Shown here: piece after piece, positions 12,790 through 49,955 of the stretch
How positions within the stretch are numbered: the stretch's first letter is position 1
How the letters are laid out: every line of letters begins with the position of its first letter
Source: Siphonodentalium dalli
Taxonomy: Eukaryota > Mollusca > Scaphopoda > Gadilida > Siphonodentaliidae
Length of the DNA: 64,000 bases
Reading direction: 5' to 3'
NCBI GenBank assembly: GCA_032622095.1
Contig: CP136061.1
Coordinates: forward strand, 84,728,324 to 84,792,323
Notes under the pieces: generated by a model
Database searches by the model: none
The model's input: only the letters and a program-made list of their open reading frames with translations
What the model was told of the DNA's origin: nothing
Program-made: the position numbers and the translations under genes

Positions 12790-12909
12790 GGTTTGGTGAT
12801 AATTGTGATTCAGGCAGCAATATATGTGTTACACACTTAACATGTGATTCAACATGTAAATGTCCAGTTGCTAGCACATATTGGAATGGGTCTGATTGTA
12901 GTAACCCAA
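12790..12909 (+). CDS. Module exon 1: six-Cys EB/EGF-like repeat
   Basis: A 120-nt exon follows the acceptor 'gttgatttcag' and ends at the donor GTGAGT (12910), phase 1 at both ends. It encodes about 40 residues with spacing C-x6-C-x5-C-x3-C-x-C-x11-C. The last loop contains TYWNGSDC, including the Tyr-Trp conserved in all nine modules and an N-G-S glycosylation sequon. An open frame reaches back to 12636 through a hydrophobic stretch, but this is most likely 3' intron sequence, because the other module exons start at the equivalent point. The protein is probably extracellular; the exact family is not certain (EB module or an unnamed molluscan six-Cys repeat). Confidence 0.8.
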
Positions 12910-13047
12910 GTGAGTATATACATCACAAACTTATCACTGGGGAACAGACCTTATACCTTGGTTTTATTAGGTGTGGCTCCATAAAAATTAGTTGCAGACC
13001 TGTGCTGTTGTTTTACACCGTGCAAACAGAGCCCAATCTTTAAGGTA

Positions 13048-13049
<2 letters not shown>

Positions 13050-13094
<45 letters not shown>
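13050..13094. repeat. Uninterrupted poly-C, 45 nt
   Basis: Forty-five consecutive C follow 'taaggtaaa'. The tract lies in the intron after module exon 1. G-quadruplex (minus strand) or i-motif folding is possible. Its length is likely to be polymorphic or error-prone in assembly. Confidence 0.95.
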
Positions 13095-13098
<4 letters not shown>

Positions 13099-14121
13099 TA
13101 TGACCATGATATCCTCATTCACAGAAACCCTCTTGTTTTGCAGACAAACATTAAGAATGTTTTATAACTCCTGTTAGATTTGACAAGGATAATGAGGATT
13201 CCGTAGTTGGGAATAGAAAATTAAATATCTGAATGGAATTGACTTATTGGTTTTGGTCGATCCTGCGTACATGTAGCAGGGTAGAGACCTCTATGACTTT
13301 GATTGTCGTTTATAATCAAAATGGGTTTCCATGGCTTGGTTCTTAGTGTGTCAGACTAGCTGCGCCAGTGCGTTTGTTTGGACCCGGATCGATCCACCTT
13401 GATCTTCAACATTTAAAAAGTTGAATAAATTACTGTGTATGCCATGCTGAGGTATCAAAAGCAGTCATCATTGTGATTGTACGTATTGGGTTGGGGTGTA
13501 AGTGGCTGTCCCATGTACAACAATGTATGCATGTGATATGTATAAAGTGTATATAATAGATGTGGTGATGGTGTTATTCAAAATTTCAGATCTTTGCGTT
13601 TTATATTTATGTAAATAAAGTTTATTTGTGCATGAAGTGTTAAAATAACAGAACAACAGGTCATGTCAACCAGAAAACCTACTGGTATATGGACTTAAAA
13701 ACTAAGTATATATACAAGAACCATCACTGGTCAATTATTTTGTATTAGGTGTATCATTTCATAAACTTGTAACATGATCATCACAGTTTCATTTCATCAC
13801 AACTACATGTATGTTTTGGTGTCAGGCTTTTCCGGGGAAATTCCCAAACAACCAAATGAATACTTAGGGGGTCAGGATTAAATGTACCATGTGATATTTG
13901 TCAATTTTATCACATATATAGTGCCCATGTAATCACTGTCATTTTGTTGCAGAAGATATATTTTCAGCAAAACTTATCCTTAAAATGATCAGTACATGAT
14001 TCACCCACTGAAGGAAAGGTCACAAAATTGGATACTCAAAGATATTGAGGTTATGGTTTCAAAGGGTTCTGAAAGTGAATTTTTGTAAAGTGAAAGTGAC
14101 CGTTGCTTCCACATTTTTCAG

Positions 14122-14262
14122 GGCAAACTTTTGATGATGGTTGTTCCCAAGGCCCAGAGGACTCGTGTGGCACTGACCTGACCTGTACAACTGTCACTGG
14201 AGGAGATAAATGTAGATGTACAGACAACAATAAGTACTGGAATTCAAACATCTGTGATATCC
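14122..14262 (+). CDS. Module exon 2: six-Cys EB/EGF-like repeat
   Basis: A 141-nt exon sits between acceptor 'cacatttttcag' and donor GTAAGT (14263), phase 1-1. It encodes about 47 residues: GQTFDDGC then C-x7-C-x5-C-x8-C-x-C-x11-C, with KYWNSNIC in the last loop. It has the longest third loop of the set (TTVTGGDK). The G-x-x-F/V-x-x-x-C entry is shared with modules 5, 6 and 9. An open minus-strand frame across it is a shadow. Confidence 0.85.
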
Positions 14263-14510
14263 GTAAGTAAACCATACAAATGATTTAATACTAGTCACAT
14301 TTAATTCTCCATTCTAAATGATTCCATTAAATAATATCAAAACTTTGTGTCAGTAGATATCCAGATATTTATGCCATTAATTTACTACAAATGTAATAAA
14401 CCTTAAAACAATCTTCTCAAATTTTAATACATGTTACTCTTCCGTGTACATAAAAACTTAAGTCTCTTAATTTTGACACAATACACCGCTTCAAGCCTGG
14501 CATTAATACT

Positions 14511-14730
14511 GATACAGTAATGCCCTAATTAATCGACTCCTTTAACCACAGCAGAATTATGGGTAACTGTTCAGGATTTAGTCGGAAATATGGCTTGTTG
14601 CCATTCATCGGAAAGCTCTCAAGAGCTTTCCGATGAATGGCAACAAGCCATATTTCCGACTAAATACTGAAAAGTTACCCATAATTCTGCTGTGGTTAAA
14701 GGAGTCGATTAATTAGGGCATTGTTGTATC
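14511..14730. repeat. 220-bp near-perfect palindrome
   Basis: Two ~109-nt arms surround a 2-nt loop (14620-14621) and are about 96% complementary; mismatches lie mainly at the outer tips and near 14569 and 14576. Arm landmarks are 'gccctaattaatcgactcc', 'gcagaattatgggtaac' and 'gccattcatcggaaagctct'. It is a hairpin (foldback) MITE by appearance. No clear target-site duplication was found. Confidence 0.95.
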
Positions 14731-15075
14731 TTCAGTTTATTTACATTACTCTAACAAAATAAAAAATGCCTGATAGTTCAGATGTCTATCTTCATGTTTT
14801 AAACGATTGTGGCAGGATAGTGATTCTGAAAAACAGTATTTTCTTTCCATATGCCGATAATGTATACTTAAAATGTCCTTTTTGCTCAAATAATCTAATA
14901 TTTTATTGCTAGTGTTATTTATGTAATGATTTAAAATAATCTGTGTTGTAGACAAAGTCACGTGATTGGCACAATCACATGATTGTCGCATGTAAATAGA
15001 ATCACATGTATATTTTGACTAATTAATTTCAGTGTTGTGCATTGCATTGATACTTTTGCTCTGCATCACTGCACA

Positions 15076-16233
15076 CAGGCCTCAGCTCACAAGGCGACTC
15101 GGGCGAGATTGTCGCCTTACTGTCGCTGACTTCGCCCTATTGTCGCTCAAAGGCGAAATCGAAGTCGCCTTCAATTTTAGGGGGAAATTTTTTATTTTTT
15201 TTCTTAATTTTTTTTCTAGTTTTTTTTCGGACATGTCTGGACATGTCCGTATATAGATGAATTGTGGCGGCCATCCCAAAAAGAAACAGACGATGCAGAG
15301 CCAAAGACCCAAGTGTTTAAAATAAAAAACTAAATATGACCTATTGTTTTGTGTTGTTATTCCGTCGCCTTTGTTCCCTTTGCGGTAATGAATGTTAATC
15401 ACGAATGTTTTGACACGCTGAAAACACGATGAGATGTTCGCATCTGTGTTGTTACTGACCATCGTGAGTGTCACAAATAAATGTTTTAATTAACTTAAAA
15501 GACCGCCGTCCCCGCTTTTCAGATATAAAACAATTACGACATTATCAGAGTATGTACCAGGCGCTTCGGAAGTTCGTTTCGGTAACGCGTCGGACTTTTT
15601 GAAGAGACCGCGTCGGACTTTTTGAAGAGACCGAGCTTCCGTAAATAAAATAATGTCAAGTTTATTGCTTTAATCGGATTATACCAGTGATGTTGGCATT
15701 AATTAAGGGAGGCCATTAATTAATAAAAGCTTTTGCAACTCCTTTGTTAGTTAGTCCTTATTGTTTATTTTAGCGGACACCCACATTACAGCCGTGACCA
15801 AATTAAACTTAAAAAGTTACATGCATCATGAATCACGATTCAGACTGTACAAACGTATCTTCCAAACTGCAGTCTAGGAAATAATACTACTTTCATTTAG
15901 TTAAAAAAGTAACTATTACTGTAACTTGATAATTGTCTTGCTTAAATGATAGCTACACAAAACATTTCCAAAATTTTTAAATGCATAATTAAATAATAAC
16001 AATTAAAAAAATTAAGTAATTTCAGATAAAGTCAAATTTTTTTAGTTTTATTTGTTATTTTATCTTTTGAAATTTTTTTTTGTCAGATGTTATAAAATAA
16101 AGCGATATTTGAAAATTGTCAATTTTTGGTAGTCTCCCCACCCTGAAGTCTCCCTAAATTTCCTGAAGTCTCCCTAAATTTCCTGGAGGGAGACTTCAAG
16201 TCTCCCTGTTCTGGACCCCTAGGCTGAGGCCTG
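15076..16233. mobile_element. 1,158-bp non-autonomous hAT-type element
   Basis: Terminal inverted repeats CAGGCCTCAGC (15076-15086) and GCTGAGGCCTG (16223-16233) are flanked by the 8-bp direct repeat ACTGCACA (15068-15075 and 16234-16241). An 8-bp duplication with CAGG-type ends is the signature of the hAT superfamily. Inside are GTCGCC-rich sequence near the left end, a 27-bp tandem duplication (15590-15640) and a 20-bp tandem, 'cctgaagtctccctaaattt', near 16142-16182. A minus-strand frame (15082-15474) has no recognisable transposase motif. Confidence 0.85.
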
Positions 16234-16699
16234 ACTGCACACTGGTATATGCTAAATGGTTATTTATCAGTCTTATATTGTGCAGTATTTTACTGGACAT
16301 TTATGCGTCCTTGTCCAGTTGACTAGGATAAATTATGCATGCTAAAAACGATTACGAATTCGATCGCGGTTCTTGAAGTTTCGTGCATAAGTGAAAATTC
16401 CATAAATTCCACAACTTTACTGTGAGTCTCCAATTCTATTCAGTGATGTCACCTACTGCATTCATACTGTTAGTAGATAGGTTCAGACAGCAAACTTCAA
16501 ACTTGAGTTACTGTTGAATCAATCTTGGAATGAAAGCAACTCATGGGAACGTTTGCCAATGAGCTGAAGGCCTGGGTGGCTTTGGAAAATAAACTACTAA
16601 CCACTGTCACTGAGACTCCCTCACGAGCGGGCACATTGCCCAAAATCTCAAGCACTTCGACGGTACCACTCAATAGAAAACATCGTCTAAATCAATCTG

Positions 16700-16927
16700 T
16701 GATCAATTGTAAATATTTACTTCTCGATTCAGGACGCAACTATAGGGCGATAAACTAGCAAAAATGATTTCACCATCCAGATTCATTGCATTTTATTAAT
16801 ATATAAGAATGACGGTGTGTGCTGGTGTGTGTTGTCATTTTGGATATAATATTTATAAAAATAACTACTTTGAGCAAGATTATTCTCCATTTCTTTCCAT
16901 CGAAAGAACTTTTTCACATCACTTTAC
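16700..16927 (+). repeat. Dispersed repeat, inverted partner of 11255-11478
   Basis: Landmarks 'caattgtaaatatttac', 'gatttcaccatc', 'aagaatgacggtgtgtg' and 'caagattattctccatttc' are the complements of those at 11.3-11.5 kb. The element ends just upstream of the acceptor of module exon 3, so it forms most of that intron's 3' end. Confidence 0.7.
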
Positions 16928-16952
16928 AATCTAATGATTTCCCTTTGAACAG

Positions 16953-17083
16953 GACTGTCATTTAATGAGACATGTGGAGCTGATGATATGTGTTCCACTG
17001 AGTTCAGTTGTCAGAATGGAACATGCATGTGTTCCAATGCATCAGATTATTGGGATGGAACAAACTGTACCACTCTTATGTAA
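16953..17083 (+). CDS. Module exon 3: six-Cys repeat with lost donor
   Basis: Acceptor 'ccctttgaacag' leads into about 41 codons: C-x5-C-x5-C-x4-C-x-C-x11-C with DYWDGTNC. It is closest to module 5; both have EFSCQNGTC, CSN-x-SDYW and several N-x-S/T sequons. Module 5 ends with 'c|gtatgt', whereas here the same site reads 'c|ttatgt' (17075/17076), so the donor G is gone. Reading on gives Leu-Met and then TAA at 17081-17083. It is therefore either a terminal exon producing a short protein or a dead cassette. A GTAATG at 17080 would be out of phase. An AATAAA lies at 17759-17764, rather distant. Confidence 0.75.
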
Positions 17084-19300: not shown

Positions 19301-19466
19301 TATTCCACCAACACCTAGCGGAAACCTTCTGATAATGTATAAATCTATGCATATCTATTATTCATTGCATTCTTTTATCTTTTGTGCTGAATATTCTTTG
19401 ATAGTTTAGATGTAGAGAAATATAGAGGGAATTTTAGTCACTGGAGATTCTATTATTTCCTTCCAG

Positions 19467-19610
19467 TGAAAGCTTTGGGAGATTCCTGTACTACAGCTCC
19501 ATCATCCTCGGAGGATCCTTGTACAGGAGATATGACTTGTCCCAACGTCGCCAACAGCGTATGCTCATGTGCCAGCGATAGATACTGGAGTGGTAGCTCT
19601 TGTCTGCCGA
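19467..19610 (+). CDS. Module exon 4: six-Cys EB/EGF-like repeat
   Basis: A 144-nt exon, the longest of the set, sits between acceptor 'tatttccttccag' and donor GTAAGT (19611), phase 1-1. It encodes about 48 residues: C-x10-C-x5-C-x7-C-x-C-x10-C with RYWSGSSC. The first loop (TTAPSSSEDP) is extended relative to the others; APxxxxDPC is similar to the APENPC of module 8. No frame disruption is seen. Confidence 0.85.
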
Positions 19611-20877: not shown

Positions 20878-20878
20878 C

Positions 20879-22784: not shown

Positions 22785-22913
22785 GATTAACATTCAATGA
22801 TACATGTGAGGCTGATACAGAAGGCATGTGCGGAACTGAGTTTAGTTGCCAGAATGGAACATGCAGATGTTCCAATGAATCTGATTACTGGAACGGAACT
22901 AATTGTAGAATGC
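22785..22913 (+). CDS. Module exon 5: six-Cys EB/EGF-like repeat
   Basis: A 129-nt exon lies between acceptor 'cactctgaacag' and donor GTATGT (22914), phase 1-1. It encodes about 43 residues: GLTFNDTC then C-x7-C-x5-C-x4-C-x-C-x11-C with DYWNGTNC. It has four N-x-S/T sequons (NDT, NGT, NES, NGT), so the module may be heavily N-glycosylated if secreted. It is the intact sister of module 3 and shows what that exon's donor should look like. Confidence 0.85.
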
Positions 22914-30603: not shown

Positions 30604-33600
30604 GCCGCTGGTGTGTTCTGTCGACATGTATAGGTCCTGGGGTACATCACTGTGACAACGGCATTCGATATGGCGTCATTTTGGGCTTCACGTCAACTGA
30701 AAAAACTCAGCAAATCATCCTAGGTGCGATTTAAAACCTCCGGATTCATCGACAGACGGACTTTCGGCCTGAATCAGTGTTCTGTGTTTTACACTAAGAA
30801 TTCATCACATCTGATCGAATTGAGTGTGCTCACGTATGGAATGTCGACACTGTTATGACCAGGTGATATTATTGAACAAATATTTAAAGGATATCTCGTT
30901 TTTTTAATTTTAAATTAATTCAAATTTAATTTAAAATTAAACATAAAATCGAAAAGATGGATGTACAAGGAGCATGGTTACCTTCGCTCGTATATACAGG
31001 GTGGGATAACACGATTGCCGTTTATATATGGCCAAGGACGTGAATTTGGAGATATTCAGTCCAATATAGTTTGCAACAGAATCGCGACTATATTCTGAGT
31101 TTTACGTCTTATTTTCGGACAAGTGTCACGTTTGTCCAAAACGAACAAACTGCGGGTTGTCGACATATATATGTCGTGGGGTGTATCACCATTACATAGC
31201 GATTCGAACCGGCGTCATGTGCGCTTTTATTCTACCGATAAACACAGCAAAACTTAGGTGCGGTTTGAAACCCCCGGGTAGACTTGATGTGAATATTCTG
31301 AGTTTTACGTCTTATTTTCGGACAAGTGTCACGTTTGTCCAAAACGAACAAACTGCGGGTTGTCGACATATATATGTCGTGGGGTGTATCACCATTACAT
31401 AGCGATTCGAACCGGCGTCATATGCGCTTTTATTCTACCGATAAACACAGCAAATCTTAGGTGCGGTTTGAAACCCCCGGGTAGTAGACTTGATGTGAAT
31501 GTTCGGTGTTTTACACTAAGAATTCATCAATCTGATCGAATTGAGTGTGCTCACGTATGGAATGTCGACACTGTTATGACCAGGTGATATTATTGAACAA
31601 ATATTTAAAGGATATCTCGTTTTTTTTATTTTAAATTTATTCAAATTTAATTTAAAATTAAACATAAAATCGAAAAGATGGATGTACAAGGAGCATGGTT
31701 ACCTTCGCTCGTATATACAGGGTGGGATAACACGATTGCCGTTTATATATGGCCAAAGACGTGAATTTGGAGATATTCAGCCCAATATAGTTTGCAACAG
31801 AATCGCGACTATATTCTGAGTTTTACGTCTTATTTTCGGACAAGTGTCACGTTTGTCCAAAACGAACAAACTGCAGGTTGTCGACATATATATGTCGTGG
31901 GGTGTATCACCATTACATAGCGATTCGAACCGGCGTCATGTGCGCTTTTATTCTACCGATAAACACAGCAAAACGTAGGTGCGGTTTGAAACCCCCGGGT
32001 AGACTTGATGTGAATGTTCGGTGTTTTACACTAAGAATTCATCAATCTGATCGAATTGAGTGTGCTCACGTATGGAATGTCGACACTGTTATGAACAGGT
32101 GATATTATTGAACAAATATTTAAAGGATATCTCGTTTTTTTTATTTTAAATTTATTCAAATTTAATTTAAAATTAAACATAAAATCGAAAAGATGGATGT
32201 ACAAGGAGCATGGTTACCTTCACTCGTATATACAGGGTGGGATAACACGATTGCCGTTTATATATGGCCAAGGACGTGAATTTGGAGATATTCAGCCCAA
32301 TATTGTTTGCAACAGAATCGCGACTATATTCTGAGTTTTACGTCTTATTTTCGGACAAGTGTCACGTTTGTCCAAAACGAACAAACTGCGGGTTGTCGAC
32401 ATATATATGTCGTGGGGTGTATCACCATTACATAGCGATTCGAACCGGCGTCATGTGCGCTTTTATTCTACCGATAAACACAGCAAAACGTAGGTGCGGT
32501 TTGAAACCCCCGGGTAGACTTGATGTGAATGTTCGGTGTTTTACACTAAGAATTCATCAATCTGATCGAATTGAGTGTGCTCACGTATGGAATGTCGACA
32601 CTGTTATGACCAGGTGATATTATTGAACAAATATTTAAAGGATATCTCGTTTTTTTAATTTTAAATTTATTCAAATTTAATTTAAAATTAAACATAAAAT
32701 AGAAAAGATGGATGTACAAGGAGCATGGTTACCTTCGCTCGTATATACAGGGTGGGATAACATGATTGCCGTTTATATATGGCCAAGGACGTGAATTTGG
32801 AGATATTCAGTCCAATATAGTTTGCAACAGAATCGCGACTATATTCTGAGTTTTACGTCTTATTTTCGGACAAGTGTCACGTTTGTCCAAAACGAACAAA
32901 CTGCGGGTTGTCGACATATATATGTCGTGGGGTGTATCACCATTACATAGCGATTCGAACCGGTGTCATGTGCGCTTTTATTCTACCGATAAACACAGCA
33001 AAACTTAGGTGCGGTTTGAAACCCCCGGGTAGACTTGATGTGAATATTCTGAGTTTTACGTCTTATTTTCGGACAAGTGTCACGTTTGTCCAAAACGAAC
33101 AAACTGCGGGTTGTCGACATATATATGTCGTGGGGTGTATCACCATTACATAGCGATTCGAACCGGCGTCATATGCGCTTTTATTCTACCGATAAACACA
33201 AAGCAAATCTTAGGTGCGGTTTGAAACCCCCGGGTAGTAGACTTGATGTGAATGTTCGGTGTTTTACACTAAGAATTCATCAATCTGATCGAATTGAGTG
33301 TGCTCACGTATGGAATGTCGACACTGTTATGACCAGGTGATATTATTGAACAAATATTTAAAGGATATCTCGTTTTTTTAATTTTAAATTTATTCAAATT
33401 TAATTTAAAATTAAACATAAAATCGAAAAGATGGATGTACAAGGAGCATGGTTACATTCGCTCGTATATACAGGGTGGGATAACACGATTGCCGTTTATA
33501 TATGGCCAAGGACGTGAATTTGGAGATATTCAGTCCAATATAGTTTGCAACAGAATCGCGACTATATTCTGAGTTTTACGTCTTATTTTCGGACAAGTGT

Positions 33601-34236
33601 CACGTTTGTCCAAAACGAACAAACTGCGGGTTGTCGACATATATATGTCGTGGGGTGTATCACCATTACATAGCGATTCGAACCGGCGTCATGTGCGCTT
33701 TTATTCTACCGATAAACACAGCAAAACTTAGGTGCGGTTTGAAACCCCCGGGTAGACTTGATGTGAATGTTCGGTGTTTTACACTAAGAATTCATCAATC
33801 TGATCGAATTGAGTGTGCTCACGTATGGAATGTCGACACTGTTATGACCAGGTGATATTGAACAAATATTTAAAGGATATCTCGTTTTTTTTATTTTAAA
33901 TTTATTCAAATTTAATTTTAAAATTAAACATAAAATCGAAAAGATGGATGTACAAGGAGCATGGTTACCTTCGCTCGTATATACAGGGTGGGATAACACG
34001 ATTGCCGTTTATATATGGCCAAGGACGTGAATTTGGAGATATTCAGCCCAATATTGTTTGCAACAGAATCGCGACTATATTCTGAGTTTTACGTCTTATT
34101 TTCGGACAAGTGTCACGTTTGTCCAAAACGAACAAACTGCGGGTTGTCGACAAATATATGTCGTGGGGTGTATCACCATTACATAGCGATTCGAACCGGC
34201 GTCATGTGCGCTTTTATTCTACCGATAAACATAGCC
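30604..34236 (+). repeat. Satellite array with 515- and 721-bp units
   Basis: The landmark 'gtacaaggagcatggttac' occurs at 30963, 31684, 32199, 32714, 33437 and 33950, giving steps of 721, 515, 515, 723 and 513 bp. The long units contain an internal ~207-bp duplication starting at 'attctgagttttacg'. The first part (30.60-30.85 kb) is a diverged edge copy. The array breaks off at 34236, inside a unit. Near-identical 74-117-residue frames recur in every unit (STYICRGVYHHYIAIRTG...), but nothing separates them from the homogenised DNA. Confidence 0.95.
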
Positions 34237-37200
34237 TTCTTATGACACGAGTTACGCCCAGGATCTGTGGTGGGAATCTGTGGTGTATTTTACTCGATTT
34301 ACCTAACAAAGCAGTACATGATGCTATATACGTCGGAAAGAGTGACATCTTATGGTCAGAATGGTGTATAATAATCTAACTTTAATGTTAAATTACACAT
34401 AGAATATTCCGGTTGATTGCCACAAACATCGTTGTTTTTTCTGTTTGTTTACTTAACTGAAAGCCGAACTCAGGTTCCGAAGAACTTCGGCATTGTCCGG
34501 TGTTTGTTCTGAGTATTCTAGTTTCCGTTTCTATATATAGCGCGGGGTTTTCCGAACAAAATGGTGAAAACCGATCGCCGCAAAGTCCAGTTTCCAATGT
34601 GCTTTGAGAACAATTCCCGCACTAAAAACTTAATGACATAATGGAGGATCAGAAAGGTAGTTTTGTTGACAATTTTCGCAAGCAACTTGTCAAAATTGGA
34701 GCAAATTAGAACTCTTGTGTCTGACTTGCCATGCGTGTGATTTTCATCCATGTGCATTTTGACTTTTGTGTTGATAAAATAATCGGAGAACCGAATCACA
34801 CTGTTTCGAAATATAGTTCTTCCGTTTTAGTGGGACTTTTCAAACTTAAGGTTAAAAATTTATACAAATTTTGTTTGATTTTTTGTCTGATTAACAAGAG
34901 CAGTATATTGCTCTGTTCGCTTAGTATATATCTTAATTTCGCTGAAGTCCACCAAATGTGGGAAATGTAGCACCATATTATTTATTCTAATGCTCGTTGT
35001 GTTTACACTGTTTTAAACTTTGAGAGGGTTGTAATTCCCCGTAATTTATTTAATGTATTACATTTATATCTCCAATGTTTAATTAATCTATTTATTTTTT
35101 ATTTATTGACACACATAATTACGATTACAATGGAGAATTCATCGTAATTTGCGTTGTCAGTCGAAAATCTACGGAATATTTTCAACGGAAAATGCCGAAC
35201 ACAGTTCGCGAGGTCAACTGAGTTCGCATACTTTAAAAAATTTGTAAACATTGCGGTAAATGTCTCTTTTCGCATTAAATTACCACTTTCAATTCACAAC
35301 TGATGTTGGTTTCAGATCAAATAGCATGTCTTCTGCGGAAAATATCCGTTTATTGTCGCAATTGTGATATTTTATTTCATATAATTGTGGTTTTATTTGA
35401 GCGGGTCACTAACGCTTAAGTCGTGTCATAGGAATGCATGTGCCTGGAACTCGGACTCCATCCCAATATCTTAGCCGGCTTTAGTACGAGAAGACTTGGA
35501 CTAGGTTAGGGAGGAATAAATAATCTCTCTCTCTACTCAGGTGATGTCAACTCCGTAGATATCAAGTTATGTTTTGACAAACACGAGAGCGCGTTTCGAC
35601 AAACATGAAAGCCTGTTTGGACGATCCCTTGTGACATCAACACAGTTGAAAAAACAATGTCATTGTTGTGACTATTGTTATCAAAGTATGAATTATAGAC
35701 ATGTTAATGCTATAAAGAGCGTTTGATTTTTTATTTATAATTTTGCAAAGAAAACAATTTACCTTGATATAAGATTTGTCTTATATGTAGTTAATAGTCA
35801 ATAATATGGTAATAAGTAAATAAATAATATATAACAGTATTTTACGTTATGAAAAGTGTAATGTGATCGTGTTTAAACGGGTACTGTCCGTCAATTTCTA
35901 TAAATCTAATATCGATAATATATAGAAAAATAAGTAATTTGAGTCGCGGATGTACATGTTCAGGTTAACAGGCTCTCTTAAAATCAAAGATAATAACAGG
36001 GTCGAGATCTCTTAAAAATCAATGTTAATATATAAAGAGCGTTTAATTTGATATTTAAAATTTTGCAAAGAACATTTTAGAATATTAATTCTTACATGCC
36101 GTATAATTGATATGGTAACTTAGTCCGCAGGACTGATCGATATCGAGCGACTAAGACTAGGTGAACCACCACATGATCAACTTGAAAGCCGTGAGAGCGC
36201 TCAAAAACAAGCTACACAAGCTGTGTTGACTTCGACAGCGGGAAGGAGAGCATGGTGGATTTCCTGGACATCGTTGGCCATTCCATTAGATTCAAGTGAT
36301 TTGTTATGTACTATTTTTATTATTTATTGTTGTTCCATGTATAATATTCGTTGAAACAAATCTGATTTTACCAAACTAGTACTTAGTTAAAATTAGTTTA
36401 CACTAAACACAAGCTTACAGTTTCGTTGATTCTACCACCTCCCCCACCCCCGCCCGCCACGAATTTTACGAATGTGGGTACTCCAACATCTGGAAGATGT
36501 ACTCCAACAAAACTGGAAGATGATAAAACATTGGTCATAGTCACGCTTTTAACGAAGCAACGAGCGAACGAGTTAAACAGTCCTGCAATGTTTGTCCGAC
36601 TTAAGTTATATACTGATGTCGGAATGGCATATTTCTTAATGTTATTGATATACAATCACCCCGACCCCACTCCCGCGTTTTAGCTCCATCATAATCAACT
36701 ATTCGTTCAACAAACTGAGAGTTTCAGTGGCACCATAGTAGCAAAGCCTATGCTGCAGACTAGAATTATCGATTGACTATCATAATATTTTTAATATTAT
36801 ATCATAACTTCAGTGTTTACTATCCTATTTCTCCGGCTGATGGGTCAAACCGTAAAGAAATTGTAATATAAATCACAATTTGCTATTAATATGAAAGTAT
36901 TGAGTCCAAATTTGTAAGATAAAAGTTTAACTACAGATTACATAGTCTATCACGCAATCTTACATAACGCGATTGACAGCAGCCACGCTGAGAACAATGG
37001 TATATACTGCATCGCGCAACGTAATTACCAGTAATTCTGCTATACTAGCTGCTGTAGGATAATTGGTACCCGGGGGTATGAATGAGTCCAGATTGTAGAG
37101 GCACTGTCCACGTCATGTCCCTCATATAATCACCACCAAACTTAATATTTAAAAATCATTTCAATTATTTAAAAACTAAAAAAAATAAAAACATGGCTGC

Positions 37201-38242: not shown

Positions 38243-38882
38243 CCGTTGAATAATCAATGGTTGTAACAATCAGTCAATAATTTTATCCTTTGAATAATCA
38301 ATGATTTTAACAATCAGTAAATGATTTTAAACGTTGAATAATCAATGATTTTAACCATCAATCAAATGATTTTAACCGTTGAATAATCAGTGATTTTAAC
38401 CATCAATCAATGATTTTAACCATAAGTCAATGATTTTATCTGTTGAATAATCAATTATTTTAACCATTGAATAATCAATTATTTTAACCATTGAATAATC
38501 ATTGATTTCATCCATCAGTCAAAGATTTTAACCTTCAATCAATGATTTTAACCAACAGTCATTGATTTTATCTATCAATCAGTGATTTTAACCGTTGAAT
38601 AAGCAATGATTTTAACCATCAGTCAATTATTTCAACCATCAGTCAATGATTTTAACCGTTGAATAATCAATGATTTTAACCATCAGTCAATGTAAATAGA
38701 ACAAATATAAATGTGTGATATCAGGATTGGCTAATACAAGACAAGCTTATAATAGGCCAAAGAATTTGAAGATATCTCAAAGGTAATGATTAACAACACT
38801 TGTTAGAAAGACATTAGATGTGAACAGCAGCCACACTGGTGACTCTAGTTTATGTATGTCACTAGATTGTTATTTATTACAG

Positions 38883-39017
38883 GGCATCCTTTTGGTCCGG
38901 GCTGTACAACATCAACTGGTGAAGACTCTTGTGTCTCTGGGCTGCAATGTCTGGGTGGATCTTGCAAATGTTCAAATTATCAGAACAACTACTGGACGAA
39001 TGCTGCCTGTGTAACTC
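38883..39017 (+). CDS. Module exon 6: six-Cys repeat, twin of exon 9
   Basis: A 135-nt exon sits between acceptor 'ttatttattacag' and donor GTGAGT (39018), phase 1-1. It encodes about 45 residues: GHPFGPGC then C-x8-C-x5-C-x4-C-x-C-x12-C with NYWTNAAC. It is a recent duplicate of exon 9: 122 of 135 bases agree by my count, and most differences change the protein (see findings). The x12 last loop is unique to this pair. The intron on its 3' side carries the Penelope-like insertion. Confidence 0.9.
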
Positions 39018-39484
39018 GTGAGTAATCTTGTCCCTTGTATTTATTGATGGTGTGTGGATGCCATGAGGTTAGCTATCTGTAATAAATCAACTTGCACTAC
39101 TCCATTACCCTGCATGACGAGATCAGCTCAAGGTAAGAATGTCATGGATTCTAGTTAGCTTAATGACTCTCGCATTTGACTTACAACAGGTCGATTTCTA
39201 ATGAGTCTGCCTAAAAAAACCTATATTAAATAGTGAATTAATTTACATAAGTGAAACAACTAGATATGATTCTGGTCAATTGCTCACTAGCTGGCGTTCG
39301 TACTTTCTGTGTTGAGTGATTTAGTTGCATTGTGTAATTAACCTTCTATACTGTAGACAAATACAACTGATGCTAACACTTATCCAACCAACCATCATTT
39401 GTTTTGATGACAGAATAATTAACAAGTGCAAATGCACAAAGAAGGGTTACAACTCCAAAGATTGATATATCTTAGGCAAGAGCC

Positions 39485-39516: not shown

Positions 39517-39624
39517 AGGCAATGAATGGCCGTGTGGCTTATATACCCTACCCCAGGAGTGACGTCATCTCCTGCTCCGTGATTGGTCAGATATATCGAT
39601 TGTTTCCAATTGGTTGAAAGGTAG

Positions 39625-40903: not shown

Positions 40904-40974
40904 AAATAGATTGTTTATTATGTATTTGTTTTGATGACGTTACCATAAAACATAAAGCTATATTTATAATGGAG

Positions 40975-42310
40975 ACAATATATGTTTCATTGTGTAGACC
41001 TCATGAATGGTGCTGAATGGGTGTGATGTTCAGTTCATTATGTAGACCTCATGAATGGTGCTGAATGGGTGTGATGTTCAGTTCATTTTGTAGACCTCAT
41101 GAATGGTGCTGAATGGGTGTGATGTTCAGTTCATTTTGTAGACCTCGTGAATGGTGCTGAATGGGTGTGATGTTCAGTTCATTGTGTAGACCTCGTGAAT
41201 GGTAATGAATGGGTGTGATGTTCAGTTCATTGTGTAGACCTCATGAATGGTGCTGAATGGGTGTGATGTTCAGTTCATTGTGTAGACCTCATGAATGGTG
41301 CTGAATGGGTGTGATGTTCAGTTCATTGTGTAGACCTCATGAATGGTGCTGAATGGGTGTGATGTTCAGTTCATTGTGTAGACCTCATGAATGGTGCTGA
41401 ATGGGTGTGATGTTCAGTTCATTGTGTAGACCTCATGAATGGTGCTGAATGGGTGTGATGTTCAGTTCATTGTGTAGACCTCATGAATGGTGCTGAATGG
41501 GTGTGATGTTCAGTTCATTATGTAGACCTCGTGAATGGTGCTGAATGGGTGTGATGTTCAGTTCATTATGTAGACCTCGTGAATGGTGCTGAATGGGTGT
41601 GATGTTCAGTTCATTATGTAGGCCTCATGAATGGTGCTGAATGGGTGTGATGTTCAGTTCATTTTGTAGACCTCGTGAATGGTGCTGAATGGGTGTGATG
41701 TTCAGTTCATTATGTAGACCTCATGAATGGTGCTGAATGGGTGTGATGTTCAGTTCATTATGTAGACCTCGTGAATGGTGCTGAATGGGTGTGATGTTCA
41801 GTTCATTTTGTAGACCTCGTGAATGGTGCTGAATGGGTGTGATGTTCAGTTCATCGTGTAGACCTCGTGAATGGTGCTGAATGGGTGTGATGTTCAGTTC
41901 ATTATGTAGGCCTGTCGTGAATGGTGCTGAATGGATGTGATGTTCAGTTCATTATGTAGACCTCGTGAATGGTGCTGAATGGGTGTGATGTTCAGTTCAT
42001 TATGTAGACCTCGTGAATGGTGCTGAATGGATGAGATGTTCAGTTCATTATGTAGGCCTGTCGTGAATGGTGCTGAATGGATGTGATGTTCAGTTCATCA
42101 TGTAGACTTGTCATGAATGGTTCTGAATGGATGTGATGTTCAGTTCATGATTGGTATAATTATAATGGAGACAATATATGTTTCATTATGTAGACCTGTC
42201 ATGAATGGTGCTGAATGGACGTGATTTCAGTTCATGATTGCTATAATTATAATGGAGACAATATATGTTTTAATATGTAGACCTGTCATGAATGGTGCTG
42301 AATGGATGTG
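40975..42310. repeat. 48-bp minisatellite, about 27 copies
   Basis: The unit has 'gtagacctcatgaatggtgc' then 'tgaatgggtgtgatgttcag' and 'ttcatt(a/g)t'. Most copies are 48 bp with 'ggtgtg'; the last few are 50 bp with 'ctgtc' and 'ggatgtg'. The edge sequence 'ataatggagacaatatatgt' appears before the array and twice inside its end (42158, 42250). The homologous array after exon 9 is mainly 50-bp units. Confidence 0.95.
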
Positions 42311-42526
42311 ATTCATGATTACTGAGATATAATGAAAAGTTATTTTAGCACAATTAAATATCATCTGGTATGCCGAAGATAAAAGATGGTCTTTAAGCTG
42401 TGTCTGTGATATGCATATCATTATCACCATCGATCAACACACACAATAGTTACTTTATGCAGTAGTTCAATTGTCACAAACCTGGAATTGCTCATTGTAG
42501 TCTTTATTATCCATAATGCTTTCCAG

Positions 42527-42661
42527 GAAAAAATGTGAATGCTGGTTGTCAAAGAGCCCCCGAGAACTCATGTATGGTTGGACTTACTTGCGTCACTGGA
42601 AGTAATACCTGTACCTGTAATGACGGTAACCTATACTGGACTGGATCAGCTTGTGAAGATA
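42527..42661 (+). CDS. Module exon 7: six-Cys EB/EGF-like repeat
   Basis: A 135-nt exon lies between acceptor 'aatgctttccag' and donor GTGAGT (42662), phase 1-1. It encodes about 45 residues: GKNVNAGC then C-x7-C-x5-C-x6-C-x-C-x11-C with LYWTGSAC. RAPENSC is similar to the APENPC of module 8. It is single-copy within the window, lying between the two halves of the segmental duplication. Confidence 0.85.
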
Positions 42662-42749
42662 GTGAGTTCCTAATTAACAGATACATTGTGACACGATAGA
42701 GGCTACATTTTTTGTTGAAACTTTCATATCAATCACAACTAACATTAGA

Positions 42750-43285
42750 GATCCTGGGAATCACAATCTTTTCGTCTAATCTAACCTCGAATCAGGGGAA
42801 GGATTTCACATCGAATCGAACCTCAACTCGAACCACCTTAATCAAAAGTTCAGTGACTATAACAATATGATTTTGTCGCCGGCGATTATAGAAGACATAA
42901 CAAGTAATTTAATCTTTTATCGTGGCTTTTCACTGTAATATTTTGGCTGAATGTACTGGAATATTTTACTGTTAAATGGAATCAGAAGGAGGTATTGTCA
43001 GTACATTAAATGAAAAGATTTTCAGGGATTAACGCAGAGAATTGGATGTTTAACTTTAGCACTTGGCATATCATGCATTGGTGCAGAGGGAGACGCCGTA
43101 AAGTATGCCTAGAGGTCAAGGGTTGAGGAGTCTAGAATGGTGTATACCCTCATGTTTGGTACAATATACATACTGGGGAAGGTTTGATAATTGATCAGAT
43201 CTTAGCGATAATTTCAAATCGAATCAAATCTTTTTTTGTAATTACACATTGAATCGAATCTCGAGCGTTTGCAGGAGCCTGAAAT
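42750..43285. mobile_element. Eroded hAT-type relic with TCGAATC repeats
   Basis: Left 'cctcgaatcaggggaaggat' and 'cacatcgaatcgaacctc', right 'caaatcgaatcaaatct' and 'attgaatcgaatctcgagcg', repeat the subterminal design of the 23.8-kb element. Ends are weak ('agatcctggg' / 'caggagcct') and no duplication is certain. Confidence 0.5.
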
Positions 43286-43289
43286 ATTG

Positions 43290-43466
43290 CAAAAACCATA
43301 TGCCAATGCATTCTCTTTTATATCAGAGTCTCCCATAGGACCTTGTAAGCCAGTGCATTCTCTTATATATGCAAGGCTCCCTATAGGAGACTATCATATA
43401 TAAGAGGATGCACCGGCACAGGATCTTTAATGCTGCACCAGAGCGGCTCCTGTCATGAAAGGGTTA
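43290..43466. mobile_element. Hairpin MITE copy, right end intact
   Basis: It contains 'ccaatgcattctctt' and the 'ctcttatatatgcaaggctc' hairpin, then 'gcacaggatctttaatgctg' and the terminus 'gtcatgaaagggtta'. It is the same family as 6750-6922; the left terminus is missing or diverged. Confidence 0.65.
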
Positions 43467-43467
43467 G

Positions 43468-43735
43468 ATAACACTCCTGTATGGAGCCTCACATGGACCC
43501 AAGCAGACGACAGTTAACAGTGCATTGGTCTCTCTGTCTGGGGCTCCATAAAGGGTTATATAACACTTCCATATGGAGCCTCACATGGACCCAAGCAGAC
43601 GACAGTTATCAGTGCATTAGTCTCTCTGTCTGGGGCTCCATAAAGGGTTATATAACACTTCCATATGGAGCCTCACATGGACCCAAGCAGACGACAGTTA
43701 TCAGTGCATTAGTCTCTCTGTCTTGGGCTCCGACT
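43468..43735. repeat. 92-bp tandem repeat, three copies
   Basis: 'ggagcctcacatggacccaa' begins at 43483, 43575 and 43667, followed by 'gcagacgacagtta' and 'gtctctctgtctggggctcc'. A plus-strand repeating frame here is an artefact. Confidence 0.85.
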
Positions 43736-44360
43736 TAGAGTGATATCAACACACTGGCATGAATTCACCACCCAACTGGACTATTGAGTCTCCCCAAGAA
43801 CAAGTGGCTTGGTCAGATAAAGTGGTGTGTGAATAGCAGTCATACACTATTCAAATCTCATGCGAAGTTGTGACCCTTGCGCAAGATCACTCGTACTATG
43901 ACACCCTAGTTGTACATAGATGGGTAATAGGCATGTTTGGCAAGCTTAACTTAGTGCGGAGGTATGAGTATGAATGTGTACATGTCTCACCGCTCTAGTG
44001 AAGCACCTGTAAAATGGCGCGGCTCAACAACTGATGTAATGACATAATAATTCAAGCACTTATCAGCTTGTGTGATCATCTATATAAAAACTATCAATTA
44101 TTGTCCCCCCAAATTGTTTTCTGTCAAAATGAAATGCTCTCTAAATTAGGCTGACCTCGATTTAGGTCGACATTCCAAAATTTAAGAATGGAAACAAGTC
44201 AATCCTGAAAATAGACCTACTAGGCATATCTGTTTTTAGATCGCTTTTAATGAGCAAAACTATGATATGACATAAGGAATCCGAATATTTGTTGAACATG
44301 CCACTAAATATCGCTTTTGGTGGGGGTTAAGTTTTTGCCCCATATTTGCGCTACTATACC

Positions 44361-44672
44361 ATATTTCTATCAGACTGACTCTGTTCAGTTGAACATTCTA
44401 AGCCGGCCTGGCAAACCTGGGGTCTCTAGTTGTATCTTTATCCAGAGTTAGACGAATGGACCAGTATATATCACCATTACATTTTTAAACATAATTAAGA
44501 TAATAGACATTATTTTGACCTAGACATTTACATGATGAATAGCGAAGACAAAAATCACAGTTACTGTCTGCAGTGGTGTTTGTTTTTATCCTTATTGCTG
44601 TGACTTTTGTCTTCGCTACTCATCATATAAATGTTTATGTCAAAATAACAGAGTCAGTCTGATAGAAATATC
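44361..44672. repeat. Nested imperfect inverted repeat, ~310 bp
   Basis: Outer arms 'atatttctatcagactgact' and 'agtcagtctgatagaaatat'; inner arms 'gatgaatagcgaagacaaaa' and 'ttttgtcttcgctactcatc'. The left arms are separated by about 125 bp that the right side lacks, so one side has an insertion or deletion. Elsewhere in 43.74-45.16 kb I see no gene. Confidence 0.75.
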
Positions 44673-45162
44673 CAAAATACCAAACTGGTACCTCATGCTT
44701 TCAATTTTCTATTGGAAATTTACAGCTTAAGAATATATCCCCGATATGGTTGTAAATTTTGCCACTGATGCTGAGTGTTGGCTATATATATATAGATCAA
44801 AATCTTAACAATTTTACCAAAAATATATAAATATTTAACTTTTAATCAAAACAGGCTAATTTCAGATTATTGCACACGAAATACTGTTTTGAAAATAAAA
44901 CTACCAGAACAGTTTCAGCCTATTTTCACTCTGAAACTTGCAACTGATTTGCCAATCATGCAAATTGTTGTGATGACGCCCGCCTTGTCAGCACATCCCT
45001 GATCAAGATAGTGATTAAAATCAGCTCTAGATAAAGCGATATAGACAGGTGAAAATCAGCTGAAAGGAAGACCGCCACAGTCTGGAGGCTGAGTGTTAGC
45101 TAGGGATATTGAAGTTTTCACATTTCTTTTTAGCACCTCTCTTTACTTTTATTTATCTCCAG

Positions 45163-45291
45163 AGAAGAGTGTGACAGAGACATGTAGTACATCAGCACCA
45201 GAGAACCCGTGCCAGGGAGCCATGACTTGTGTTGGTGGTCGATGTTTTTGTACGAGTGACAAATACTGGGATGGAACTAACTGCTTGCCTC
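45163..45291 (+). CDS. Module exon 8: six-Cys EB/EGF-like repeat
   Basis: A 129-nt exon sits between acceptor 'atttatctccag' and donor GTGAGT (45292), phase 1-1. It encodes about 43 residues: KSVTETC then C-x8-C-x5-C-x4-C-x-C-x10-C with KYWDGTNC. The open frame begins at 45093, but upstream residues (FLFSTSLYFY) are translated intron. The downstream frame past 45292 also continues open for 70 bp, yet the donor matches the position used by the other modules. Confidence 0.85.
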
Positions 45292-46100
45292 GTGAGTTTA
45301 AATCCAGTCAACTCAGATATTTTTTTAATTCTGGACGAAATTCATTTCAGCACTGGGATTGAGTTTGTTCATTGTTAGGACTTGCACCATTTAAACTTTT
45401 GATCATTGTAACTAATTATATACATATATAACTAGCTGATGGACCCGACCTCATCTGGGCTATAGGGATTTCTTTGCCAGAAACATGACAATATGAGCAA
45501 GGACACGGTTGTATGCGAAATTGGACCCGATTTGACCTTGAATTGACCATTTTGAAGGTCAAGGTCAGGTATGGGTGAACCACATTTCCATCTTTATTAG
45601 AACAATCTGTTTTAAATAGGCCGATCAGTCTTCCTGGCACAGTGCTCATTGGTGAAAGGGAAGAAAGTCTAAATTTCTTGAATTTTAAAATTTTATTTGT
45701 TTGAAGATTTGTACATGTTTATACTGAATATTCTCAGTAAATAATTATTTTGTGTCTAGATCTTTCAAAAGAGATCATAATTTTTTTTTTTTTTAAAGTA
45801 TTTATCAATATATATAGGCACTACTTAGTTCCAATATCATATTGGTGATGCCCATACAGGAAGCTATCGAAATACATATATATGATATCATTATTATTAT
45901 TGGACCAAGTGCATGATACAGTATTTCCTGTATATATATTATTTATTATCTTCCGTTAAACTAAGAGCTTCAGAACAAACATTATTATACATAATAATTC
46001 AAATATGTACACAAATGGGGTGAACAATTGAAAAAGTAGACATATTAATACATAGCCACAGACAAGATATACCTGTGACATGAATCAAAGGTATGCATAT
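45292..46100. other. Intron, no gene; AGGTCA-type half-sites
   Basis: Non-coding. At 45532-45567 'ttgaccttgaattgacc' faces 'aaggtcaaggtca', giving four AGGTCA-like half-sites in inverted arrangement. Such sites are bound by nuclear receptors, but may be chance within a repeat. Confidence 0.3.
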
Positions 46101-46107
46101 AATATAC

Positions 46108-46943
46108 CAGGGTTTCCGATAGGGATAAAATATTGGGGCCCCTTTTCTTGTGGCTAGGGGAAAAACACAATTGCCATCGCTGCCGATGTTGATGAGGAAT
46201 TAAGATACACCTACACATACAGTATACATGTATAAACTTGCTTCTGGTAAGTTCTACTCTGGTTATATCATAGGTCAAATGGTATGCCCAAAGGACGAGC
46301 CCATTTTTGTACAGACAGATAAATGATGGCAATCAGCGGCGGCTGCCAATGATTTCACATGCTTTGTGAATTCCTCGACCCTTGATCTCCAAGTATGGAA
46401 TGGAGTTTACCGAGTGGTAAACACTACAAACTACAGGATAGATTTATCTCCCTTACTATGATCACGTCAGGCAGAGTTATCTCCAATCGCTCCTCATGGA
46501 GTTTGAGTCAATTCATCTACGGATGGGGCGCTGCTTGCAGTTTGCATGCAAATGTCAATGGTTGAGGAATCCAGAATGTCTGTGGCATAATTAAACATGA
46601 CTGGTTATAAACTATAGTGGGTGGGGGGGGGGGGGCTATGTGCAAACAAACTTGAGCTGCCCATATTTAACTATAGTTTTAAAATTAGGAATATGGTGCA
46701 TACTGTCGATAATCACACCAATCATGATTAAAGAGAATCTAGTGAAGTCGAAGGAAAAAAATCCTTGTCTTTGACTGAACACAATGTTGACAACATAATC
46801 AGGATTAGATTACACTTCTGTCGTGCTTTGGTACTTTTATTTAACTCTACCGGTAGTTCACATTATATACGAAAGTGATGTATCATGCATGGATGGAGGA
46901 AAACTTGGCTAGGGGATCCCATGCCGGTATAGCGGAAACCCTG
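46108..46943. mobile_element. 836-bp hAT-like element
   Basis: Inverted termini CAGGGTTTCCG (46108-46118) and CGGAAACCCTG (46933-46943) are flanked by 'aatatac' on both sides (46101-46107, 46944-46950). hAT elements normally give 8 bp; an eighth matching base is absent. It carries a poly-G tract near 46622-46637. No transposase was recognised; the minus frame at 46045-46332 extends past the element edge and is unlikely to be real. Confidence 0.75.
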
Positions 46944-46954
46944 AATATACATAT

Positions 46955-47115
46955 GCAGACAGATATATGACAGTCATGCACACAGACGTACAGACATGCA
47001 GATAGTCATGCATGCATACAGACAGACAGTTGTTCATAAACATACATACATATGGACAGACAGGTACACAGGTAGATCAACAGACAGGTAGACAGTCAAG
47101 CAGACATAAACAAGC
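46955..47115. repeat. Degenerate CAGA/ACAT microsatellite
   Basis: Repeated 'cagacag', 'catacat' and 'acaggtaga' words across 160 bp. Confidence 0.7.
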
Positions 47116-47200
47116 ACGTATATGATATATTAATTCACTGGATAGAGACTTACGTGAGATAACCAGCCTCACATGCAAACTATTTTCTACATAACTCGAC

Positions 47201-49610
47201 TTTGCACATTTCCTTCCTAGAGTTATTCATCCTTGTTCAAGTAAAAGGTGTGGTATTTATAAAGGGTTATTTATGCAGCCATTAATTCAGTCAATGATTT
47301 CAACCATCAGTCAATGATTTCAACCATCAGTCAATGAGTTTAGTCATCAGTCAATGAGTTTAACCATCAGTCAATGAGTTTAACAATTAGTCAATGATGT
47401 TAACAATCAGTCAATGAGTTTAACCATCAGTCAATGAGTTTAACAATCAGTCAATGATTTTAACAATCAGTCAATGAGTTTAACCATCAGATAATGAGTT
47501 TAACCATCAGTCAATGAGTTTAACCATCAGATAATGATTTCAACCATCAGTCAATGAGTTTAACCATCAGTCAATGAGTTTAACCATCAGTCAATGATTT
47601 CCACCATCAGTCAATGAGTTTAACCATCAGTCAACGAGTTTAACCATCATTCAATGAGTTTAACCATCAGTCAACGAGTTTAACCATCATTCAATGAGTT
47701 TAACAATCAGTCAATGAGTTTAACCATCATTCAATGAGTTTAACCATCAGTCAATGAGTTTAACCATCATTCAATGAGTTTAACCATCAGTCAATGAGTT
47801 TAACCATCAGATAATGAGTTTCCCAAAAAATGTTGAGGAAACAATGCCGACAGGTGTGGTGTTTTTAATCAAATGCACATGTAACGATTGATTTAGTTTG
47901 TTATTGTTCATCACAAACACATGTTGATAACACATGTTTATGAAATAAAGAAGATTGTTGCCCTTTCTAACGACGTCTTCTTTATGGTATCCGACTAGTG
48001 TCTCCTATTTTTGACGCAAGTTACGAAATTCACCGTGGCGCTCAATAGTGCAAATTCAATAATAACAGCTGCGAGTACATGTTGTAAGCATGAGATTGAC
48101 ATGCATAAACATTTTGGGAATGCAGAGATCATTAACAGTTGTTTTTGGAAAGTTACTCATAATTCATTAGCATAATCACAGTTGAATAATCGTGGGCATA
48201 AATGCGGGATAATGGATCTATTTCAGTTAAATAATGCCTTCTCAGCATACTATTGGTCTGTTCTCATCATTATTCTCATTGTACACCTTCTAATTAACTT
48301 CTTATCACCGCATAGGCTAAAATTACGACATGTGATTGATATGATGCTAACTATTTGAATGTGAGTTTGATCAATATACTTATGTGGTGAAATATTGCAA
48401 ATATAACAGTATATATTGATTTAAAATGTAACTGAGGACCTGTTTACACATGGCATGCATTACCATGGTGATTACCATCACAATTATATGACGTCATCCA
48501 TTGGCAGGTAGCACAAATTGGACAGTTGTCACTGGTCACAACAATATATGGGTGTCCATACCTACCACATCTATAAATACTAGTATGAATGTCCCACATG
48601 TGAGACAAAGAATTTCCATGTAAACTGCTGTAAACCCGGTGTCCTGGATAATTTACCTCTGTAAATTCGGTTGCGAAAGAGTTAACTGTTGAATAATCAA
48701 TGGTAATTAACCGTTGAATAATCAGTGGTTGTAACAATCAGTCAATAATTTTATCCATTGAATAATCAATGATTTTAACTGATTAATATTATTCACCATA
48801 AGGTGGCTTATATGCTCATGCCCTCTGGATATTTGGTTCTTAGTTGGAAAATCCAGTTTTGTATTGTTTCGCCGACATCGAGTATTGTGCTCGATGTCTG
48901 AGTCAGTGTTTGAGACATGTGACATGATATGAGTGGTAGTTATGTTTACTGACTAGCTTTAGGGGGCATTTGATATATCCCTAATGTGTTGTTGTATTCT
49001 TGTTGTTAGAGTTTGAAAAGATAGGTGATGGTTCCTGGCCTTGTATGAAGGACTTTTGTATAAGTGGATATTGGTTTCCATGTGTGGAGGTTTATCATGT
49101 TTTATTGTGGGATATGATTTTAACTGTTGAATATTCAATGATTTTAACCATAAGTCAATGATTTTAACCATAAGTCAATGATTTTAATTGTTAAATATTC
49201 AATGATTTTAACCATCAATCAAATGATTTTAACCATAAGTCAATGATTTTAACCATAAGTCAATGATTTTAATTGTTGAATATTCAATGATTTTAACCAT
49301 CAATCAAATGATTTTAACCATAAGTCAATGATTTTATCAGTTGAATAATCAATTATTCAAACCGTGGAATAATCAATGATTTTAACCATCAGTCAATGAT
49401 TTTAACCATCAGTCAAAGATTTTAACCTCCAAAAAATGAATTTAACTGTTGAATAGTCAATGATTTTAACCATCCGTCAATGATTTCAAACATCAGTCAA
49501 TGATTTTAACCATCAATCAATTAGTTTAACCATCAGTCAATGATTTCAACCATCAGTCAATGATTTTAACCAAGAGATTCAATGATTTTAACCATCAGTC
49601 AATGTAAATA
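47201..49610. repeat. 19-bp minisatellite, copy 2 of segmental duplication
   Basis: Starts at 'tttgcacatttccttc', as does copy 1. Near-perfect 'tttaaccatcagtcaatgag' units fill 47280-47825 (about 28 copies). Then comes about 850 bp partly not shared with copy 1, then 'ggtgtcctggataatttacc' (right end of the TTAA element), then a looser array to 49600. The block ends in the same 'tgtaaatagaacaaatataa' stretch that precedes both module exons. Confidence 0.9.
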
Positions 49611-49820
49611 GAACAAATATAAATGTATGACATCAGGATTGGCTAATACAAGACAAGCTTATAATAGGCCAAAGAGTTCAAAGATATCTCAAAGGTAAAG
49701 ATTAACAACACTTGTTAGAAAGACAAGTACAGAATTTAATTGTGTTTTCCATGAGATGTGTAGAGCAGCCACACTGGTAATGCTGATATATGAATGTCAC
49801 TAGATTGTTATTTATTACAG

Positions 49821-49955
49821 GGCATCCCTTTGGTCAGGGCTGTACAACATCAACTGGTGAAGACTCTTGTGTCTCTGGGCTACAATGTATGAGTGGATCT
49901 TGCAAATGTTCAAATTATGCGACTGAGTACTGGACGAATGCTGCCTGTGAATCTC
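49821..49955 (+). CDS. Module exon 9: six-Cys repeat, twin of exon 6
   Basis: A 135-nt exon lies between acceptor 'ttatttattacag' and donor GTGAGT (49956), phase 1-1. About 45 residues: GHPFGQGC then C-x8-C-x5-C-x4-C-x-C-x12-C with EYWTNAAC. Compared with exon 6, two synonymous changes accompany changes at eight residues, three of them consecutive (QNN versus ATE) just before Tyr-Trp. Acceptor, donor and about 60 bp on each side are nearly unchanged. It is the last module in the window; the gene presumably continues past the long minisatellite. Confidence 0.9.

Follow-up and report, generated by a model that had tools for sequence, protein, structure and literature searches.

Nine cysteine-rich module exons of Siphonodentalium dalli as the probable distal ectodomain of a receptor-type protein tyrosine phosphatase

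Which protein do nine small cysteine-rich exons in the genome of the scaphopod Siphonodentalium dalli belong to? The exons lie in a stretch of 64,000 nucleotides, hereafter the window (GenBank assembly GCA_032622095.1, 2.23 Gb in nine contigs; contig CP136061.1, here C1, positions 84728324-84792323), and the gene that contains them is called gene A. The original prediction had read them as cassettes of a secreted or surface protein with alternative module content. We consider it highly probable that they code for the part of a receptor-type protein tyrosine phosphatase (RPTP) ectodomain that lies farthest from the membrane, because module, FN3, transmembrane (TM) and phosphatase exons follow one another in this order on one strand, and because paralogue B, the next gene on the chromosome, has its parts in the same order. 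The surface half of the earlier reading was retained; it had missed the RPTP parts, and the secreted half lost ground.

A scan of all six frames of the window for the cysteine pattern returned nine matching frames, all on the plus strand and all where nine one-module exons had been predicted. The loops between successive cysteines were 5-10, 5, 3-8, 1 and 10-12 residues long in 9 of 9 modules, in keeping with the earlier description of a fixed second loop and CxC beside variable other loops, and the only invariant columns were the six cysteines and a YW. With leave-one-out profiles, the modules scored 24.3-54.0 bits. The window has 1,511 open frames of 25 amino acids or more, and among these no frame other than the modules exceeded 6.7 bits. 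E6 and E9 did not contribute to each other's profile, whereas E3 and E5 did. Every exon has a phase-1 AG acceptor and eight have a phase-1 GT donor (the exception being E3), which agrees with the phases first reported. The nine divergent modules of the original prediction are present, but they are not all independent, since E6/E9 (82% DNA identity, intron included) and E3/E5 (75%) are duplicate pairs. Likewise, the exons do lie at 12790-49955, but the array does not end there: six more module exons follow downstream of the window on the same strand, giving gene A a total of at least 15. When the whole genome was searched with seven joined modules, at least 138 matches had E ≤ 1. The 30 kb preceding the window and its opening 12.7 kb yielded no additional module, and in paralogues B and C, too, the first match is an E1-like module.

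Over approximately 276 kb, one strand carries at least 15 module exons, three FN3 domains, one TM exon and one tyrosine-phosphatase exon, in this order and with splice phases that can be matched, as read from the sequence. The exons common to the four loci after the last module were found by comparing gene A with its paralogues B, C and D (C1:85.12-85.30 Mb, C1:0.557-0.70 Mb and C3:211.09-211.25 Mb, respectively). The FN3 domains of gene A scored 39.8, 36.4 and 32.2 bits, all above the Pfam cut-off of 25, and the fn3 model was passed by all six pieces tested from A, B and D (26.5-44.9 bits). The TM exons of A and B, which are 54% identical, are predicted to encode a hydrophobic segment with a basic run, and both have phase-1 entry and phase-2 exit. 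The phosphatase exon of gene A reads SDGIGATG, where alanine replaces the arginine of the loop, a feature of inactive D2 domains. Usable phase-1 acceptors and donors, chosen from the two best-ranked sites per side, were found for all six further module exons, FN3-1 and FN3-2. In total, 14 of the 15 module exons combine an open frame with usable phase-1 sites, and the FN3 and TM exons are open as well. We infer that all of these parts are joined in one transcript, whose product would lie in the plasma membrane and signal from there.

Paralogue B, which stands in tandem with gene A, supplied the active-type counterpart. Beside an exon with DYINASYI, its phosphatase exons scored 64.9 and 36.9 bits (cut-off 20.9); one exon shows the motif YIAAQGPLP..DFWRM, and B reads SAGVGRTG, in which the arginine of an active-type phosphatase signature is present. 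In both genes, a phase-2 acceptor splits a serine codon before the GVGRTG- or GIGATG-type stretch, which would place the catalytic cysteine in an exon further upstream. Both A and B show a phosphatase match that follows the last FN3 on the same strand by no more than 130 kb; for a random C1 position and strand the chance of this is 0.0055, as computed from the listed phosphatase matches only. In the phosphatase family search of the genome, 150 of 344 candidates were scored, and its results hold among the matches listed.

Several observations weigh against the assignment to an RPTP. A D1 exon of gene A was not found at 84.94-85.12 Mb in a search with the D1 pieces of B. The gaps in gene A are large, approximately 43 kb from FN3 to TM and 75 kb from TM to phosphatase, and a minor part of the gap DNA was read. 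A signal-peptide exon was not recognised in the 22.8 kb upstream of A and approximately 9.7 kb upstream of each of B and C, where E1 was the sole coding exon shared by A with B or C among the 14 best matches per pair. Furthermore, the phase-1 acceptors of E6'' and M14 share their rank with another site, both phase-1 sites of FN3-2 are second-ranked, and no GT lies nearer than 60 nt to the typed core of FN3-3.

Table 1. Positions of the exons and repeats discussed. Numbers without a contig prefix count from the first letter of the window.
Feature	Position	Strand	Remarks
E1	12790-12909	+	first module exon found; phase 1-1; 120 nt
E2	14122-14262	+	module exon; phase 1-1; 141 nt; one copy here, 12 intact in paralogue C
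E3	16953-17079	+	module exon; in-phase donor lost (GT to TT); next GT gives phase 2
E4	19467-19610	+	module exon; phase 1-1; 144 nt
E5	22785-22913	+	module exon; phase 1-1; 129 nt; has a near-identical counterpart in paralogue B
E6	38883-39017	+	module exon; phase 1-1; 135 nt; opens the repeated block E6-E7-E8
Minisatellite, 48-50-bp unit	40986-42313		short array, ~1.3 kb, in the E6-E7 intron
E7	42527-42661	+	module exon; phase 1-1; 135 nt
E8	45163-45291	+	module exon; phase 1-1; 129 nt
E9	49821-49955	+	second E6 copy; phase 1-1; 135 nt; opens the second block, which runs past the window
Giant array of the same 48-50-bp minisatellite	50152-64000		in the matching intron after E9
E7'	C1:84831595	+	module match
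E8'	C1:84834911	+	module match
E6''	C1:84836576	+	module match
M13	C1:84849040	+	module match
M14	C1:84853742	+	module match
M15	C1:84863191	+	module match; last module of gene A
FN3-1 of gene A	C1:84877902	+	Pfam fn3
FN3-2 of gene A	C1:84887348	+	Pfam fn3
FN3-3 of gene A	C1:84898195	+	Pfam fn3
TM exon of gene A, IAAIVAPIVVIVILVIIAIGAIIFIRRRK	C1:84941566-84941680	+	found with the TM exon of B; acceptor and donor
Y_phosphatase exon of gene A	C1:~85017196-85017331	+	34.3 bits, cut-off 20.9; D2 type
Paralogue B modules	C1:85123897-85212768	+	module matches
Paralogue B FN3	C1:85214381-85218174	+	Pfam fn3
Paralogue B TM exon	C1:85278263-85278377	+	hydrophobic segment with splice sites
Paralogue B phosphatase exons	C1:85291176, 85291708, 85303461 (85291176-85303605)	+	DYINASYI, YIAAQGPLPGTVDDFWRM, SAGVGRTGTFI
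Paralogue D TM match	C3:211248626		search with the TM exon of B

If gene A encodes an RPTP, the cysteine-rich array may form a long, disulphide-stapled stalk or ligand-binding rod outside the cell, and ligand binding or clustering would control an intracellular phosphatase that opposes tyrosine kinases. Since the only phosphatase exon found in A is of the inactive D2 type, catalysis in gene A would need a D1 domain, D1 being present in paralogue B. The predicted protein resembles known RPTPs in its FN3 domains, in its one TM exon with a basic stop-transfer run, and in the D1-type motif of B and the D2-type motif of A. It differs in the distal ectodomain, which here is an array of six-cysteine EB/EGF-like modules, whereas the vertebrate RPTP classes have immunoglobulin, MAM, carbonic-anhydrase or FN3-only ectodomains. 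RPTPs are well known, and an EB-array ectodomain is a variation on a known receptor type. Among molluscs, RPTP-like transcripts of oyster haemocytes are reported in a phosphatase gene ontology group that also holds EGF-like domain proteins (PMC13070813), and PTPRK is named in the abbreviations of a heat map of expanded families in a snail (PMC7895826); these passages do not deal with module arrays, with exon phases or with growth in copy number. The listings from the literature searches contained no EB-array RPTP, although one may nonetheless have been published.

How does the array change in length? Window positions 42495-46380 align with C1:84831563-84836099, and 38400-39247 with C1:84836136-84836937, introns included; the pieces are 84-93% identical, apart from one at 76%. 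With E9 as the second E6, the order of blocks is E6-E7-E8, E9-E7'-E8', E6''. By these alignments, E6-E7-E8 is a three-exon unit that was copied together with its introns, and the array changes its length by duplication of phase-1 exons, singly or as blocks with introns, while the frame stays intact. The earlier claim that symmetric exons can be duplicated without a frameshift was therefore borne out, both by this block and by paralogue C, where 12 of the 14 E2-like matches retrieved are intact exons with phase-1 sites and the other two break off after the CxC; the one E5-like match retrieved is likewise intact. The E2-type copies of C have a mean DNA identity of 88%, flanks included (range 73-100%). 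In paralogue B, with 12 of the 16 matches compared, the first module is closest to E1, the last three are closest to M13, M14 and M15, and the middle varies. A module of B at 85183367 lies just before a stretch homologous to window 34238-35503, and gene A is without that module. Positive selection on the modules was considered because dN/dS (the ratio of nonsynonymous to synonymous change) was 0.98 for E6/E9 and 1.82 for E7/E7', yet the pooled pairs were no different from neutral (23 of 206 nonsynonymous versus 5 of 58 synonymous sites differ; Fisher p 0.81), and the idea was dropped.

E3 is the one exon that breaks the phase rule. At its donor the sister exon E5 reads C/GTATGTAA and E3 reads C/TTATGTAA, with T in place of the donor G. 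The next GT lies 4 nt further and yields an exon of 127 nt that leaves in phase 2, so that inclusion of E3 would shift the frame. E2 and E4 join in phase, and E3 could therefore be skipped without harm; it probably is. E3 and E5 differ at 15 of 22.3 synonymous and 14 of 97.7 nonsynonymous sites, a dN/dS of 0.09, suggesting that the loss of the donor was recent. In the simplest reading, the donor of this probably dying cassette was lost not long ago; alternatively, the change may be an assembly error at one base.

The paralogues B, C and D look like recent segmental copies. In their 3' flanks the frames are 83-100% identical, mostly above 94%, and this includes frames that are not exons (12 best matches per pair); upstream, B and C are 78-98% identical in the matches shown. 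Upstream of paralogue C, at C1:369777-369908 (plus strand), stands a D2 exon that shares 98% identity with the one in gene A. This points to copying of the A-B tandem pair as a whole, with one pair near the chromosome start.

Could gene A be a decaying copy, a pseudogene of this tandem family? The lost donor of E3, the missing D1 and the near-neutral changes of E6/E9 and E7/E7' speak for it. However, the module, FN3 and TM exons are open as described, and dN/dS is low not only for E3/E5 but also for E5 against its counterpart in B (0.10) and for E8/E8' (0.24), with few changes in each pair; we regard decay as quite improbable. The same low standing is given to a secreted protein made of modules, or of modules and FN3, and separate from the TM and phosphatase exons. 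The large distances to those exons favour it, as do paralogues C and D, which show modules and FN3: among the matches listed, C has no TM or phosphatase within 200 kb downstream, and D has a TM match and no phosphatase nearby. A 69-module relative, described below, points the same way. Nevertheless, modules, FN3, TM and phosphatase stand in one order and on one strand in A as well as in B, and the entry phase of the two TM exons equals the exit phase of the modules. A secreted cassette protein was consequently lowered from its place as the leading reading once these exons had been found in order.

The idea of a combinatorial receptor, in which symmetric exons are alternatively included and one gene gives many ectodomain versions, also seems unlikely. 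Its appeal is that all exons but one are phase 1-1, so that any subset keeps the frame, and that one exon type may be present in many copies, as with the 12 intact E2-type exons of paralogue C. Extracellular modules are, however, usually encoded on symmetric phase-1 exons, and such exons need no alternative splicing. Furthermore, the array ends keep their order between paralogues, with an E1-like module first and M13-M14-M15 last, which fits a fixed, ordered ectodomain, and the copies of paralogue C are so much alike that they would provide little ligand diversity. Combinatorial splicing is demanded by nothing in the evidence at hand.

Returning to the RPTP reading, we asked what the module of its ectodomain is. 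None of the nine window modules passes a Pfam cut-off. EB (PF01683) is the commonest weak match, found for five of the nine at E up to 1 (best 16.7 bits, cut-off 24.3); the strongest single weak match is EGF_integrin (E 0.0024, for E8), and EGF_2 (0.3, E1) and EGF_Teneurin (0.32, E7) are below cut-off as well. The modules share with EB the five-residue second loop, the CxC and a similar spacing; they differ in staying under its cut-off, in the invariant YW and in having six cysteines throughout, the EB module having eight. With EGF-like domains, whose disulphides pair 1-3, 2-4 and 5-6, they share six cysteines, a CxC between Cys 4 and 5 and, in six of nine, a W-x-G-x-x-C end, but they match the EGF models weakly or not at all. 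An AlphaFold2 model of E8, built with nine sequences, had a mean pLDDT (predicted local distance difference test) of 82.5 and contained two short strands. A clear relative did not emerge: all 20 Foldseek matches up to E 10 lay above E 0.001, and in VIA-align Z was at most 2.8 among 21 chains aligned. Five of those alignments, with Z of 2.3-2.8, were to small cystine-rich peptides and are taken as a common arrangement of such peptides. Sequence searches of the PDB yielded nothing useful for the modules (two matches up to E 1, at 0.023 and 0.26) and nothing for E8 up to E 5; Rfam gave no match at gathering scores. We call the module EB/EGF-like and do not file it as an EB member. This label had been proposed originally and holds good through the weak matches and the shared cysteine spacing; of the checks proposed with it, the Pfam profile search gave the window modules no match over cut-off, and the structure prediction for E8 gave no structural relative at E ≤ 0.001.

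A relative of the module family is found at C1:53064315-53073314 (minus strand), where one open frame of exactly 3,000 amino acids holds 69 modules. The frame can be read as one exon that enters and leaves in phase 1. Of its 68 steps, 65 are 43 amino acids long, and a two-module unit alternates: in modules 13-60, neighbours are 39% alike and every second one is 92% alike. EB is its best Pfam family, with 359 bits summed over the repeats and one stretch passing alone, and the PDB gave no match to it up to 0.001. The cluster of module matches around it spans 210 kb, and the matches listed include no FN3, TM or phosphatase nearby. A terminal domain was not seen by eye in 20 kb at the low end of the cluster, which held five more modules in one frame and one module-like frame.

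What do these genes mean for the animal? The RPTP assignment gives the exon array a named role and shows how a receptor ectodomain may be lengthened by copying phase-1 exons; the same genome holds an apparent one-exon form with 69 modules beside the multi-exon array. We speculate, with rather little expectation of being right, that the genes are fast-changing recognition receptors: tandem and segmental RPTP copies in which duplication, loss and perhaps alternative use of frame-neutral cassettes reshape the EB-like ectodomain, so that individuals or cells would differ in module number and order and signal through phosphatases in an invertebrate immune or self-recognition role. Should module number vary between individuals, the locus would offer a clear test of how modular receptors evolve and of whether phosphatases, in place of kinases, serve immune or self-recognition.

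Further phosphatase exons occur in groups at C5:43.8-45.3 Mb, C5:80-83 Mb, C3:131 and 224 Mb, and C1:2-5 and 63 Mb; judged from these matches, the genome has a large expansion of the phosphatase family. Neither the mollusc-type haemocyanin family (PF14830) nor the annelid linker (PF16915) matched in the genome; as both also stayed silent in every control genome, these negatives exclude no phylum. On the minus strand of C3, at 298705178-298708971 and 300417754-300421029, there are tandem arrays with a period of 167 bp, and the units listed match the D2 exon of gene A; this satellite seems to have grown from a coding exon. Repeats are also present in the introns of gene A. The minisatellite array after E9 continues through the next 20 kb past the window and is at least 33 kb long in total. 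The long E5-E6 intron contains direct repeats at window 30724-34095 (six copies spaced at steps of approximately 515 and 721 bp; five copies reach 98% or above), and in the E1-E2 intron a run of 45 cytosines lies at 13050-13094.

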